DNA of 56,072 nt from Prevotella sp. (GTDB lineage: Bacteria > Bacteroidota > Bacteroidia > Bacteroidales > Bacteroidaceae): positions 1 through 56,072 of the forward strand of contig JAFPME010000005.1 of NCBI GenBank assembly GCA_017402445.1, in the 5' to 3' direction. The notes under the pieces are model-generated. The model was not told the origin of the DNA. It saw only the letters and a list, made by a program, of their open reading frames with translations, and searched no databases. Shown here piece by piece: positions 500-56,072 of this stretch. The position numbers and the translations under genes were made by a program. Numbering within the stretch: position 1 is the stretch's first letter; each line of letters begins with the position of its first letter.

Positions 500-3229
500 T
501 CACTTCACCAGCAGTTTCTTTCCGTTTACGATGTACATGCCCTTCGGCAGGTTGTCAATCGATGTGTTTACCTTGCGCCCAGACAGGTCGTAGATGGCAG
601 TGATAGAATTCGGTGGCACGGGAACAACGGAATTTCGCTCAATGGAGGTTACGATGCCGTCGTCCGTCTCATCGTCTGCATATCCGTCTATGATACCGTT
701 GATGGAAATCTTAGCTCCTGCATCAGTGTTTTCAGGTGTGTCGAAGATGCTATGAGTGAGTGTAATCCATCCACGGAAGCCCTTGATGCGGGTGTCGCGG
801 CTCAGTTCATACATTTTGCCGCCGCTCATGGCATACGAACCCTTCGGGGCGTAGCTGCCGTCAGGGGACGTTTCAGAAGCAGAAACGGTTATAGTGCCAT
901 TACTGTTAACCCGGAACGTGTCGAAACCCGGTGTCTGAATATATGTGACATGTCCGCAACCGTCGTTCGTGTTATTATAGGAGCCGACTTCCTGCTCTCC
1001 GTTCCATGTATTCAGGTCCATTACAGGATAAATATAATCAGGATCTTCATTTTCTCCCTTGGTGGAGAAGAACATCCTGCCGAGGTCGTAATAGTTAGCC
1101 ATGTCGCCACGTGGGGTTACACCAAAGATAGGCTCCTTTGTTGGTTTCAGCATGTAGAGGTTGCCAGGCGTGACGACGTTGTCGAGCGTAATCAGATCGA
1201 CCGTCTGGAAATCAATGATACGGTCATTTTTATTCGACAGGTTGCCGATGCTGTGCAAGATGAGCAGTTCGCAATCGTCTCCGAAAGCATTGCGCACTTG
1301 CTCACCCGTCAAGGGCAGCGGGAACGAGAAGGTGTTCCACTCGTCCCTCGTGAACTTCCGTTGCAGGTTGACAGAACCACTATACCTGCCACTCTTGACT
1401 GCCGGAGCATATTCGTTTGGCGTAAACCGCGCTTCGTCAGCATCTTCTTGGCTCAAGTATCTCAAATCCTCTTCGTCCTCATAGAAGAACACGGGGCCTA
1501 TACCCATATAGGAGGCGCGGATGTCATCCACGCACACCCAGTCGGTGTCATAGTAGCCTCTGTTGTTGTTTTTGACAACAACATCGCTCTGAGTAGCCGC
1601 ATCTTTCCTGAATCCTAAGCGGATGGTCTTTTTGCCTGCCTCGAAGTCTTCTTCCGAAATCAGCACCCACACCTTCTGTCTGTGGTTATCTCTGTTGCGG
1701 AGCAACTCCTTGCCCACTTCCAAACAATTCTCGTAGTTATTTTTCTGATATGCATCGTAACGCATTTTCTCCAAAGTCACCTGGCCATAGGTAGGATCAT
1801 CCTCATTTTCCTCATCTGGAATCGCAAACGAGCTTTCCGGAGTATTGATTTGGTCGTCGCGAATCACACGGGCAAACAGATAGGCATCATGGGCATCATT
1901 TTCATCATTTTCGCTCATCGAGAAGCCCGCACACTCTATCTCATACCATCCTGGTAAGGTGACTGTGAAGTTGGTCGTGACGGTGCCCACGCCTTCAAAG
2001 ATCATAAAACCATACTTGGCATTCTTCTTTCCAGCAGGCTGATCATTCGTGCTTGTAGAAGTCCACTTGTCAAATACTTCTTTTAACCTAACGGGCGAGT
2101 CCCATGGTTCATTGACAAAACCTCTTGATTGTTGGTTGTTGGTTTTCAACGCTTGATCCTTCTGATAATCACCCCAGGTGTAGGCATAACGTTTCGTACC
2201 CGTCCCATAGGTATAGCCACTCAGCGTAGAGACCGTCCAGTCGTGATCACCGAAAAAGTCATTGGCGTTACGGGTGAAATCGCGGTCTTTAATCAGTGAC
2301 GAGATGCTTGGATTAAGCCCAATCCCGTTACTGTTCAGTTTATCTATAAACTCTTTGATAGATATCAAGCGCCACTGATAGAGTTTCTGTATATCCACAA
2401 GGTCTCCGTTTTCCAACATTGCCTTTCCGTTTTCTTGCTTCACATAAACACCATTCTCTGTTGTCGTACCCCACATAGAAACTGCTTCTATAGCATCTTC
2501 GTTCCGTACGTCTACGCTTGTCCAGCAAGAACGGTCATCATCCATAAATACAAACTGCCCGTCACCCTTGCCATTTATGGTGTTGTGACATTCTCCCCAA
2601 GCGGCTCCAAGAAAAAAATTCTTGCCGTCATATTGTTTGTTATGGTATGTAGAGCCAGTAGAAGCATTAGGAGCATTAATCTTATATAGACTTTTAGAAG
2701 TTTGATACATATAATAGGTGTAAGTCTCTGTATTCGACGCTGCTTCAACTCGCTCAAAATGCCAAGTCATTGGATAATTTCCCCATTTAGTGTCTCCATC
2801 CATCAAGGTGGTAAGGTTGGCTTCAGTAATACTTGTCCAGCTGGTTTTTCCTGTCGGTTCAGGAGGTCGGGTGCAGAAACTGTTCTTAGTAGCAGTTACA
2901 CTCTCGGTGATTCCAGCATTGATGCGGCCATTGGAGTACAGATACATCTGGCGGCCAAAGTCCGAGAAGAACAGACGGCCTTCCATTGCCCAGTCACCAC
3001 CCTGCATGATAAAACGACCGGTTCCTACATTATACAAAAGAAAGGGAAAACCACTTTCAATGGTGTTATCGTCGGGGTAATCGCCATTAAGAAGAACAGT
3101 ATTAACATCAATACCCTTCCATTTCTGGCTGGTAGCCTCGGCATGTGTCTGTGCCTTTAATCCTCCGACAAGTATGAACGTCATGAGGAATAATAATGCG
3201 TATGTCTTAAAATGTCTATTGAGTCTCAT
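500..3229 (-). CDS. Large secreted protein with C-terminal sorting-like tail, unknown function
   Basis: A protein of about 909 aa. I start it at the ATG at 3229 (MRLNRHFKTYALL), because the longer frame needs a TTG two codons earlier. Residues 1-27 form a signal peptide ending in GGLKAQ. The body is rich in aromatic residues, Asn and Asp, as in extracellular beta-sandwich proteins. I recognise no catalytic family. The end (IYDLSGRKV, then LPKGMYIVNGKKLLVK) resembles the C-terminal sorting domains of type IX secretion substrates. The same tail occurs on three PUL proteins in this window. It therefore probably acts at the cell surface or outside the cell, perhaps binding glycan, but this is inferred only from the tail and the neighbourhood. 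It is followed by the small acidic peptide gene. It is separated from rhaM by about 780 bases, so it may not belong to the PUL. Confidence 0.75.
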   Translation of the reverse strand: MRLNRHFKTYALLFLMTFILVGGLKAQTHAEATSQKWKGIDVNTVLLNGDYPDDNTIESGFPFLLYNVGTGRFIMQGGDWAMEGRLFFSDFGRQMYLYSNGRINAGITESVTATKNSFCTRPPEPTGKTSWTSITEANLTTLMDGDTKWGNYPMTWHFERVEAASNTETYTYYMYQTSKSLYKINAPNASTGSTYHNKQYDGKNFFLGAAWGECHNTINGKGDGQFVFMDDDRSCWTSVDVRNEDAIEAVSMWGTTTENGVYVKQENGKAMLENGDLVDIQKLYQWRLISIKEFIDKLNSNGIGLNPSISSLIKDRDFTRNANDFFGDHDWTVSTLSGYTYGTGTKRYAYTWGDYQKDQALKTNNQQSRGFVNEPWDSPVRLKEVFDKWTSTSTNDQPAGKKNAKYGFMIFEGVGTVTTNFTVTLPGWYEIECAGFSMSENDENDAHDAYLFARVIRDDQINTPESSFAIPDEENEDDPTYGQVTLEKMRYDAYQKNNYENCLEVGKELLRNRDNHRQKVWVLISEEDFEAGKKTIRLGFRKDAATQSDVVVKNNNRGYYDTDWVCVDDIRASYMGIGPVFFYEDEEDLRYLSQEDADEARFTPNEYAPAVKSGRYSGSVNLQRKFTRDEWNTFSFPLPLTGEQVRNAFGDDCELLILHSIGNLSNKNDRIIDFQTVDLITLDNVVTPGNLYMLKPTKEPIFGVTPRGDMANYYDLGRMFFSTKGENEDPDYIYPVMDLNTWNGEQEVGSYNNTNDGCGHVTYIQTPGFDTFRVNSNGTITVSASETSPDGSYAPKGSYAMSGGKMYELSRDTRIKGFRGWITLTHSIFDTPENTDAGAKISINGIIDGYADDETDDGIVTSIERNSVVPVPPNSITAIYDLSGRKVNTSIDNLPKGMYIVNGKKLLVK

Positions 3230-15787: not shown

Positions 15788-15941
15788 CGGAGCTCCCTTT
15801 TCGCACGACGAACAAGACACCGTTGCACGATGACCAAAGCCTGGTCAGCACGTGACCGCACCCTGGTCAGCAAGCGACCAAAGCCTGGTCGACCGATGAC
15901 CACGCCCTGGTCAGCACATGACCAGCGTGCGGTCGCCACAA
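15788..15941. repeat. Intergenic degenerate array A, 22-bp period
   Basis: Five units starting GACC at 15832, 15854, 15876, 15898 and 15920 are each exactly 22 bases. The core is GACC-N4-CCTGGTC, itself a small inverted repeat, usually followed by AGCAC or similar. Two weaker units precede (15788, 15810). The period is not a multiple of three, so it is not coding. The array lies between the lyase operon promoter and the group II intron. Confidence 0.75.
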
Positions 15942-16024: not shown

Positions 16025-16663
16025 ATTGGGTAGGAGCATGGGGATTAGTTCCCCATGCGTCCTCCCACACCACCGTACAAGCGGTTCCGCATACGGCGGT
16101 TCCGTGCTTTGACACCTCCGAGGGCGTGCGTCTTGTTGTCTTAGGCTATCAGCTGCCAAACATCGCTCTTGCCTATCCTTTGATTCCGTCATACTTTCGG
16201 CAAGCAGCCTCCTTGAGGAGCAACTGACTCTTAGGCAGCCGTAACCTTCAATTACGAATTCGCTGCACGGTTCGGTCCTTCCCTGTAGGTACACGTACCT
16301 TGGGTACTTTGACCTCGGCTGACTTCTCATGGCAAGCTTTACTCCGCTATGGTACATCGAATAGCTGTATCTTCGCCATGCGTCCATGAGATCTCCCCGA
16401 TTAAGAGCATAATCTTTCACACTTATACCTGCTTGATTTACGCCACTCGTTCCGAATAGCTATAGGGCTTTGACTTCTTTGGCAGTCTCACCCACGAGCA
16501 AACGCCTTGGTATCAAGTTTCTGTACGTCAGGCCAGTGATTTGCCGCAGACTTCCTTCAGATTCCACCTCACGATGGACACCCTTGTCGTTGGCTGTGCG
16601 CTTGCCGCTATCAGGCCGCGCTGGGGACTTGCACCCATTAGATTATGCCCATGTCGGGCGAAC
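16025..16663 (-). mobile_element. Group IIC intron without maturase gene
   Basis: On the minus strand the element begins G-TTCGCCCGACATGGGC, close to the group IIC start GTGYGCCCGGCATGGG. It continues with GGGTGCAAGTCCC, CAAGGGTGTCC and GGAATCTGAAGGAAG, all typical of the intron's domain I. Domain V is at about 16050-16098 (GGAACCGCCGTATGCGG, then TACGGTGGTGTG). Domain VI follows as a hairpin (GCATGGGG / CCCCATGC) with the bulged A region, ending near CCTACCCAAT. The length is about 640 nt, so the reverse transcriptase has been lost. A short frame starting MTESKDRQERCLAADS may be its remnant. The element lies directly after the T-tract of an intrinsic terminator, the usual target of class C introns. 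It could move only with a maturase supplied in trans. Ends are uncertain by a few bases. Confidence 0.88.
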
Positions 16664-29308: not shown

Positions 29309-29606
29309 CCGAATTTTTGATTTTTGGAGTGTAATTTTTGACATAGCTCAAGTCTGTATATCGTTCGAGTGGTGCTCAAAACGTAGAATTTGAAAGGCTG
29401 AAGCCATTCTGTTGTGTAAATATTTTTCAATCATAAAAAGCACATTTCTGTGGCTCTCACATCGTTTTCACGAACCACTGGTGACCATACGGACCGCCGA
29501 CGACTGCCGTTGCGAATGAAAGGCTGCTCTGTTCCGAAGTCTCTCCTGACTTGCAGCGACCCTTCAAAGGGCGCTCAGAAAGCTGGCAACTTTCTCATTA
29601 CCAATT

Positions 29607-29804
29607 GTATAACAATCCTTTTCGCGTTGACGGAAGAACGCTGTCAAGCTGCCATTTCAGTGAAATTGCTCTCCAATTTCACTGAAATTCCTCAGCAATC
29701 TCACTGATTTTCCTTTGCAATTTCACTGAAATTACACACCGAAAGCATTGCTCTGACAAAGAAAAATGACGCTTTTGGCAAGCAGAAAGCCTCCTTTTGA
29801 CAAC
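29607..29804. repeat. Intergenic degenerate array B, 22-bp period
   Basis: Nine contiguous 22-base units run from 29607. Units at 29651, 29673, 29695 and 29717 share a CAATTTCACTGAAATT-type core, a near palindrome. The units at 29739, 29761 and 29783 share AAA plus CTTTTGRCAA at the same offset. The order of these blocks repeats that of array C at 42.8-43.0 kb. The period of 22 rules out a coding repeat. Confidence 0.8.
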
Positions 29805-29956
29805 GAAAGGAGCGAGTATATGATCGTTTTTCGACTCCTTTTTATCAAAATATGTAAAATAAATTCAGAACAAAGACTGTCTTTCAGAACCTGTCTAAAG
29901 GACAAAAAACACGGTTATTATAGCAAAAAAGTAGAGACGGACTGAAAAAAAATTAG

Positions 29957-42636: not shown

Positions 42637-43041
42637 GACGTAACGAAGTCTCGGCCTCGCTATGACGTTATTTCGCTTTCGTTATGACGTTATATCATCG
42701 TCGTCATAACGTTATTCCACCTTCGTTATGACGTTATAACGACAACGAATTAACGTTATAGCGGCAACATATTAACATTAAAAACGGCAACCTGTTAACG
42801 CTAAAACGGCCTCTTCACAATGTCAAAACAGCCTGATCGTGTTGACGAAGCATTGCTTCCCGAATGCAAAATCAGTGAAATTGCCTGGCAATCTCAGTGA
42901 AATTGCGCTGCAAAATCAGTGAAATTACTGAGCAATTTCAATGAAGTTGCAATCTCCGACGGACCTTCCGGCAACGGAAAAGCAGCCGTTTGGCAAGTCT
43001 GGCACAGCCCGTCGGCAAATCGGAATGTCGCTTGCTGAAGA
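42637..43041. repeat. Intergenic degenerate array C, 22-bp period
   Basis: About 18 units fill most of the gap between convergent genes. Units from 42659 to about 42813 share a GTTATGACGTTAT- or TTAACGTTA-type core, with one 23-base unit. Four units at 42866, 42888, 42910 and 42932 share CAATCTCAGTGAAATTG-type cores. Units at 42954, 42976 and 42998 end in GGCAAC, GGCAAG and GGCAAA. Block order and words match array B. It is not coding because 22 is not a multiple of three. Confidence 0.82.
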
Positions 43042-43130
43042 AAGTGTGGGGGCGGGGAGAGGGGAACCGGAGAGTGGCCAGGGAGGAAAAATGCAGGCTT
43101 CGGAAAGCGGAAGCGAGCGGTCCGGACAAA

Positions 43131-55588: not shown

Positions 55589-56072
55589 TTAGAGTTGTTC
55601 CAATAACTCTCTGCCCTTCTTCGTTAGATAGTATGATTGCATTGGATGATTTGGAGCCTCAGGATAAAGCATCGCAATATAACCTGCTTCTATGTTTGGC
55701 ACAATATATGTGCTCACAAATCCTTTTCTATCCTTTCTCTGCATCGATTCCATCAAGGCTCTCAGATTTGAGCCATTTGTTCCAATAGCGGATAATAAAG
55801 CTTTTAAACGCTTAGCTTTTGCTATCTCGCGTTTTGAGGTTGAGGGGGTTGAGGGGGTTGAGGGGGTTGAGGGGGTATTAACTTGTAGGGTTGTGGGGGT
55901 CTTGCCTTGCAAGCGACCATCGGTCGAGCGGAGGGGTGAACTTGTATGGTTGTACGGCTGTATGGTTGAACGTTTGAACGTAACCCATACAAATGCACTA
56001 TTTTGATTGAACTCTGGTTCCGGAAGATTGGCATTTTTGCAAGCTTCGACCATACGATCTACGCCACTGCCC
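55589..56072 (-). CDS. C-terminal part of an AlbA/RecG-like ATP-binding regulator (cut by the window edge)
   Basis: The gene enters from beyond the right edge. The frame is open to the last base, reading GSGVDRMVEACKNANLPEPEF, with the GSG.DRM...C...GLPEPEF-type phrase that ends the GHKL-ATPase-like domain of COG2865 (AlbA_2-type, 'putative DNA-binding') proteins. A linker then contains four TPS-type repeats (NTPSTPSTPSTPSTSK), coded by a 9-bp minisatellite. It is followed by a basic helical region (KREIAKAKRLKALLSAIG) and a C-terminal winged-helix-like segment ending YYLTKKGRELLEQL. Such proteins are often found in genomic islands and defence-rich regions. At least 161 codons are seen; a start inside the window (ATG at 56053) is not the real one. 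Confidence 0.7.
   Translation of the reverse strand, partial: GSGVDRMVEACKNANLPEPEFNQNSAFVWVTFKRSTIQPYNHTSSPLRSTDGRLQGKTPTTLQVNTPSTPSTPSTPSTSKREIAKAKRLKALLSAIGTNGSNLRALMESMQRKDRKGFVSTYIVPNIEAGYIAMLYPEAPNHPMQSYYLTKKGRELLEQL

Follow-up and report, generated by a model that had tools for sequence, protein, structure and literature searches.

The 56,072-nt stretch of Prevotella sp. DNA studied here (the window) harbors two intergenic arrays, denoted B and C. Array B lies between the divergent genes of a TonB-dependent receptor and a GH88 protein; array C is found between the convergent genes of a CDP-alcohol phosphatidyltransferase and an M16 peptidase. In both places, a GTTGACG leader precedes four 19-bp palindromic units, which succeed each other at a spacing of exactly 22 bp. 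Behind them, array B shows TCTGACAAAG, TTTTGGCAAG and TTTTGACAACG (likewise 22 bp apart) and array C shows TCCGGCAACG, TTTGGCAAG and GTCGGCAAA. A preliminary description of the window had reported this composition, with one divergent and one convergent gene pair, and it could be read at both sites. Respective coordinates are provided in Table 1. The borders given there follow from the 22-bp grid and are slightly wider than those first reported. The array of GTTATGACGTTAT-type units next to C has no second match that we could find in the same genome, and its membership in element C is only putative.

Table 1. Coordinates of arrays B and C, their parts and associated repeats (window positions unless a locus is named).
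Feature	Position	Strand	Remarks
Element copy B, 219-bp platform, centre 29693	29584..29802	.	PWM score 190.2 (copy included in profile)
B left arm	29584..29653	+	TGnC words 29584 TGGC, 29628 TGAC (inside the GTTGACG leader), 29650 TGCC; grid position 29606 reads TGTA, word missed
B leader GTTGACG	29626..29632
B central units, n=4, GCAAxyTCASTGAyxTTGC type	29651..29735	.	starts 29651, 29673, 29695, 29717
B right arm	29755..29802	+	GnCA words 29755 GACA, 29777 GGCA, 29799 GACA; 29733 misses
Element copy C, 219-bp platform, centre 42908	42799..43017	.	PWM score 171.5 (copy included in profile)
C left arm words	42821..42846	+	42821 TGTC, 42843 TGAC; 42799 and 42865 miss
C leader GTTGACG	42841..42847
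C central units, n=4	42866..42950	.	starts 42866, 42888, 42910, 42932
C right arm words	42970..43017	+	42970, 42992, 43014, all GGCA; 42948 misses
22-bp array of GTTATGACGTTAT-type units, immediately to the left (upstream) of C	42657..42810	.
~383-bp family, examples	L225:6957-7339, L224:269-651, L235:5801-6183

The preliminary description had further stated that the two arrays share words as well as the order of these words. Gapped local alignment of 29600-29810 with 42830-43045 yields a score of 106. Scores from 1000 first-order Markov shuffles are on average 21.1 (sd 3.4, maximum 36) and other segments of the window reach at most 33, which bears out the shared words. If the 22-bp blocks are randomly ordered (500 trials), a mean of 42.9 (sd 10.2) and a maximum of 92 are obtained. 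Since B and C score above this maximum, not only the units themselves but also their order is kept. Reversed B matches C equally well (score 112), because the element is mirror-symmetric.

Within the respective genome, a draft of 1.87 Mb in 44 contigs (50.7% complete), BLAST of B identifies 52 pieces at 28 places, B and C included; the other 26 places are loci L009-L034. That B and C are members of a repeat family, as had been supposed, is thus supported by 26 more loci in the genome itself and by related arrays in relatives. Exactly four central units at 22-bp steps are present in 26/28 loci, the exceptions being L013 (four units plus decayed ones) and L034 (two units). A pattern search with at most 2 mismatches identifies 82 unit junctions in this genome, compared to none if the pattern is reversed. 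When the loci are superimposed without gaps and centred on the four units, 27/28 follow a common plan, which is mirror-symmetric, covers 219 bp and obeys an exact 22-bp grid. That is, the left arm holds TGnC at -109, -87, -65 and -43, the centre holds TCASTGA (centred at -33, -11, +11 and +33, within GCAAxyTCASTGAyxTTGC), and the right arm holds GnCA at +40, +62, +84 and +106 (ending at +109). All profile counts are based on 27 loci, i.e., L034 was left out. The left arm words are at their exact position in 22, 23, 24 and 19 of the 27 loci (outside to inside) and the right arm words in 16, 23, 22 and 20 (inside to outside). Words shifted by 1-3 bp occur in 0 or 1 of 27 loci, and the next two outward grid positions carry a word in 5 and 0 (left) or 3 and 6 (right) of 27. 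On average, 6.3 of the 8 arm words are present per element (range 4 to 8), with 6/8 for B and 5/8 for C. Given the exact grid, the sites recur after whole turns of the helix, as in iteron- or centromere-type arrays. A CRISPR array would show identical repeats separated by unique, equally long spacers, which were not found in B/C-type arrays; CRISPR was rejected because only 3 bp separate the units and units differ within one array.

We also scanned 456 kb, i.e., the window and three long contigs chosen in the knowledge that they hold matches, with the element profile. Nine full copies score between 142 and 201 and one degenerate copy (C15:7931, cores mostly AATTGA) scores 67, while the best value in a shuffled contig is -135.4. 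As the full copies are part of the profile, these scores reflect separation and not independent discovery. The next-scoring places that were inspected belong to a different family of about 383 bp with CATTTTG/CAAAATG units, which is discussed below.

All 28 loci lie between called genes, where the gene calls are longest-ORF picks and not curated annotation. At 7 loci, a called ORF and the core edge overlap by 5-35 bp, and in L034 an ORF spans the core; both may be artefacts, since the earliest start is always taken. The flanking genes are divergent in 10, convergent in 9 and in tandem in 9 of the 28 loci. Within the 456-kb sample, 10 of the 59 gaps of at least 250 bp contain the element (degenerate copy included), namely 4 divergent, 4 convergent and 2 tandem gaps, which are too few for a claim on orientation. 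Neighbour products range from TonB receptors and glycoside hydrolases to a ribosomal RNA methylase, LytB and LpxB, and no common function was seen among the 30 neighbour proteins of L009-L033 and 7 window ORFs that were scanned.

Next, we compared the conservation of the words with that of the remaining positions. The mean pairwise identity between loci is 0.91 for word columns and 0.32 for non-word columns inside the element, where the latter has to be related to 0.28 just outside the element and 0.25 from base composition. Non-word columns thus retain only a weak trace of likeness between loci. For the arms, the best pair of loci shows an identity of 0.59 compared to a mean null maximum of 0.58 from shuffled columns, and 0/1404 arm pairs exceed the 95% null. 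Within units and linkers, neighbours along the same array are partly alike (homogenised) in direct orientation, as in an ordinary tandem repeat. Since the words are kept in copies that show no detectable relation outside them, the data point to selection or constraint at each locus and not to recent copying. The copies of this genome are therefore of great age, or evolved rapidly, or arose independently of each other, with the words kept in each case. Young identical copies may be absent from a draft of 50.7% completeness.

A different picture emerges in relatives. In the sister species G005, the 25 fetched loci have two to four TCASTGA units with a predominant TTGGTnACCAA linker, the arm words are much weaker than in the genome of the window, and flanking genes are convergent at 11/25 and divergent at 1/25 loci. 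Only one position is clearly common to both genomes (L021/L053, 69% protein identity); a second is perhaps shared but doubtful (L015/L057, 42%). The 20 loci fetched from G331 (Tb.RUG.441) hold 2 to 5 units and weak arm words. In tf2-5 (Prevotella sp.), 11/12 fetched loci have a near-identical three-unit block in common, from which L083 differs. The full 4+4+4 plan was observed in the genome of the window only, and in part in one G248 copy (four units, 4/8 arm words). An apparent link between this G248 copy and the G005 loci was dropped, since nothing but short segments within other genes had produced it. Flanks are shared, i.e., exceed the null, in 32/264 arm pairs of tf2-5, 18/760 of G331 and 5/1200 of G005, which shows dispersal by copying for part of the copies in these three relatives. 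The initial alternative of 'dispersal or common constraint' can thus be separated in part: constraint is favoured within the genome of the window and copying within three relatives.

At least one TCASTGA junction (at most 1 mismatch) is present in 26/299 genomes of the genus, and 22 of these have 1 to 8. The highest counts at this threshold are 81 (G000), 53 (G191), 52 (G005) and 12 (G280). Among 80 of 99 named loci listed, 61 are assigned to Prevotella/Prevotellaceae, 10 to Treponema, 2 to Bacteroidaceae and 7 to others; six of the latter look like chance matches, and the seventh (L075) comes from a Clostridiales draft and has three units in an array. One Treponema genome shows 120 junctions with at most 2 mismatches. 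In locus L080 of this Treponema MAG (2708-3089), a 17-unit array changes its word stepwise from TCACTGAGTT to GCGCGGAGGT at a constant period of 22 bp. Neither the 72,556 plasmid records nor the phage collection contain a match to copy B. Three viral contigs of near-identical sequence have one two-unit match each, and the B/C plan was not found in them.

We further investigated whether a 22-bp period is present beyond the TCASTGA arrays, which were masked for this purpose. In the non-coding DNA of the genome of the window, lag 22 has the most self-similar windows (9, next best lag 2). It also leads in the tf2-5 loci (7 windows, next best 4 at lag 44) and in arbitrary stretches of G028 (6 windows, next best 5). 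For G003, lag 22 shows the strongest autocorrelation (z 4.4), with more windows at lag 44. The signal is weak in the G005 and G331 loci, and in arbitrary stretches it is absent from 2/4 other genomes, i.e., G009 (7/14-bp periods instead) and G016 (20 kb), which counts against generality across the genus. The 22-bp ruler is thus common in part of the genus and not universal. Several further arrays were noticed on the way. G028 has its own dispersed 22-bp family with a ATAGCCTAT core (L219:9218, L220:15725, L222:11942), and its locus L035 mixes this core with TCACTGA units in one array. In five G005 loci (L050, L055, L056, L063, L067), arrays of a second family occur, whose cores are of TCGACGA type and whose linker resembles the one in TCASTGA arrays. 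In L087, L120, L146 and other loci of tf2-5, the TCASTGA block is accompanied by adjacent GAAGGYGGCACCTTC-type palindrome units that keep to its 22-bp grid.

The genome of the window also holds the second compound family mentioned above, i.e., elements of about 383 bp in which a conserved leader ACGCGTACGCGCGAA...TTGTATTTTCTTTACA precedes CATTTTG/CAAAATG units on a 22-bp grid. Motif search identifies 11 copies, all in a 400-kb sample, and at least 3 more are visible. BLAST finds at least 11 main places including the query at 78-100% identity (best 11 of 88 candidates), with 81-91% for the best six other places. Judged by these sequence identities, the family has clearly spread by copying, such that compound elements on a 22-bp grid do disperse in this genome. 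Covariation is seen at 2/14 tested dyad positions (37 vs. 25.9, P 0.0003; 34 vs. 25.6, P 0.007).

To assess the potential for RNA or single-strand structure in the B/C family, we considered both folding energies and the pairing of variable positions. The 85-nt cores fold strongly as single strands due to their palindromic composition, i.e., with on average -35.6 kcal/mol compared to -13.3 for mono-shuffled and -37.0 +- 0.8 for half-site-recombined sequences. Half-sites within a unit that are identical as inverted copies are, however, rarer than expected (22 vs. 34.1, P 0.0006), and the same holds for half-sites facing each other across the linker (8 vs. 22.3). No excess pairing was found for mirror-position pairs. 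We read this as recognition of half-sites in double-stranded DNA, as far as sequence can tell, with a single-strand or RNA role being possible. An RNA hairpin or terminator was rejected for the B/C family, since variable pairs are depleted and do not covary despite the strong folding potential. Rfam at gathering threshold gave no match for the elements in the window, L009 and L017; beyond these, the search covered C29 stretches only. Promoter-like matches in the B region are at chance level (3 vs. 2.0 expected), one of which is a sigma-70-like match (11 of 12) at 29797-29824 that overlaps B's last right word. Of terminator-like matches, 0.6 are expected in this region and one is present, on the minus strand within B's right arm (29791-29812).

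On balance, we lean towards reading B and C as two of at least 28 intergenic copies of a fixed platform, i.e., a phased docking array on double-stranded DNA for a putative oligomeric protein. Plan, exact phasing, bounds, copy number and the absence of a detectable relation outside the words are observed in the loci themselves; protein binding, the oligomeric state and the role are what we infer from them. Each of the four palindromic units in the centre offers two inverted half-sites GCAAxyTCA. On either side, four directional words (TGnC on the left, GnCA on the right) extend the grid outward in mirror orientation. As two helical turns span approximately 22 bp, all sites are on one face of the DNA. 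The putative protein would most likely nucleate on the four central dimer sites and then spread outward over the arms, whose eight sites would be weaker and outward-facing. Formed at many positions of the chromosome, the resulting complex might serve chromosome organisation, insulation or co-regulation. Far back in their history, the arrays were probably dispersed as non-autonomous mobile elements. A mobile origin of the B/C family is plausible, and its mobility within this genome is putative.

The strongest rival to a docking array is an old non-autonomous, MITE-like element, with the arms as sub-terminal transposase sites, TG...CA as ends and copies that are old. We consider it rather unlikely, and both readings may hold in succession, i.e., the element spread and was then kept for its function. 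Near-identical blocks at 11/12 tf2-5 loci, the flanks shared in three relatives, a copied second family on the same grid and the patchy occurrence in 26/299 genomes all fit mobility, as do the mirror symmetry and the outward-facing words with TG...CA outermost. The copies of the genome studied here, however, show no detectable relation outside the words, and their arms are repeats of short words, without longer terminal inverted repeats in the profile. Target-site duplications were looked for at lengths of 4-9 bp; with 256 offsets per length, the best z is 3.1 and none is conspicuous, a test that has little power if copies are old. A Mu/Tn7-type C-terminal domain had no match in 12 genomes, in which the control matched nowhere either, such that this negative is uninformative. 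Less probable still are operator arrays of a global transcription regulator. Conservation restricted to words is typical of operators, the loci are intergenic with 10/28 between divergent genes, and the sigma-70-like match touches the last word of B, yet such matches do not exceed chance. Loci between convergent genes (9/28 here and 11/25 in G005, with 1 divergent) have no promoter to control and thus speak against operators, as do the scanned neighbour genes, which share no pathway. Moreover, usual operators have fewer than twelve fixed sites.

That the arrays act as RNA or single-stranded-DNA hairpins, i.e., as terminators or REP/BIME-type elements, seems very improbable to us. The predicted folding is strong, 2/14 dyads covary in the ~383-bp family and B's right arm has its terminator-like match. 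Real cores, however, fold slightly less well than half-site-recombined ones, paired variable positions are rarer than expected, and the elements tested in the window, L009 and L017 are without Rfam match. In addition, the Y1 transposase (PF01797) does not track the arrays: it has matches in 9/12 genomes, unrelated to array presence, with 0 in G005 (25 array loci), one partial match in G000, 10 in Treponema G323, and matches in G010 and G016, both without TCASTGA junction. A REP/RAYT system was rejected on this co-occurrence. We give hardly any credit to a neutral 22-bp minisatellite whose register is kept by unit duplication. It could draw on the many unrelated 22-bp arrays in these genomes, the homogenised adjacent linkers and the gradual word change along the Treponema array, but without selection one would not expect the number of central units to be constant, the element to be mirror-symmetric and the words to be near-invariant across 27 loci.

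For a more general system the case is tentative. Several Prevotella and some Treponema might possess an undescribed site system, in which dispersed platforms obey a strict 22-bp ruler (mirror-symmetric in the genome of the window) and are recognised by a fast-evolving putative binder, such that words are replaced genome-wide between species while the phasing is kept. If true, these platforms would constitute a new class of nucleoprotein element in bacteria, with either a chromosome-organising or a parasitic role.

Concerning literature, the preliminary description knew of no such family, and a printed description was not found in the open-licence full texts of PubMed Central. In a term search of a 2024 review of prokaryotic MITEs (PMC10969869), BrickBuilt occurs twice, and Prevotella, Bacteroidetes, Treponema and tandem have no match; a term search of a P. 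gingivalis resequencing paper (PMC5771137) yielded nothing bearing on B/C arrays. Among the literature searched, BrickBuilt is the nearest printed relative in kind of the B/C family. Its host Porphyromonas gingivalis belongs to the same bacterial order as Prevotella. This MITE is dispersed and intergenic, with 23-nt tandem units between leader and tail, 19 copies in one strain and 1 to 22.8 units per copy; leader and tail are long and non-repetitive, and the ends resemble IS5-family inverted repeats (PMC4596501). The B/C family is likewise dispersed and intergenic with tandem units every 22 bp between leader and tail. Unlike BrickBuilt, it has a nearly constant unit number, its leader and tail are words on the same 22-bp grid, and neither an inverted terminus nor a target duplication was found.

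REP/BIME elements are numerous short intergenic palindromes per genome in regular arrays, accompanied by RAYT transposases. The B/C family resembles them in its many short intergenic palindromes in regular arrays but differs by its mirror-symmetric twelve-word design without pairing covariation. The 22-bp iterons of plasmid R6K place sites every two helical turns, with protomers on one face, and the B/C sites are phased in the same way. Iteron- or centromere-type arrays are, however, single replication or partition loci on plasmids, whereas the B/C family has tens of copies across a genome, with B unmatched in the plasmid records. matS, Noc and SlmA sites are palindromes that occur across the chromosome, each type being the target of one organising protein, but are mostly single sites. 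The B/C sites are also palindromic and spread over the chromosome, with an organising binder being putative, and each locus is a platform of twelve words. Proteins that organise the chromosome in a sequence-specific manner are, to our knowledge, poorly known in Prevotella and its order. With its twelve fixed words at tens of loci, words that differ between species and a constant 22-bp ruler, the platform could serve as bait for an organiser protein. The series of arrays also allows to study how a binder and its sites throughout the genome change jointly. Under the mobile reading, the family would instead represent a type of miniature element that is defined by phased words and not by terminal repeats.

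Two further repeats were observed in the window. At 15825-15924, there is a 22-bp array of TGACCA...TGGTCA palindromes, which has one other place in the genome (C42:24235). Group II intron matches (16025-16578) are found at a distance of about 100 bp. At 55838-55876, the 9-bp sequence GGTTGAGGG forms a perfect tandem repeat of 4.3 copies.
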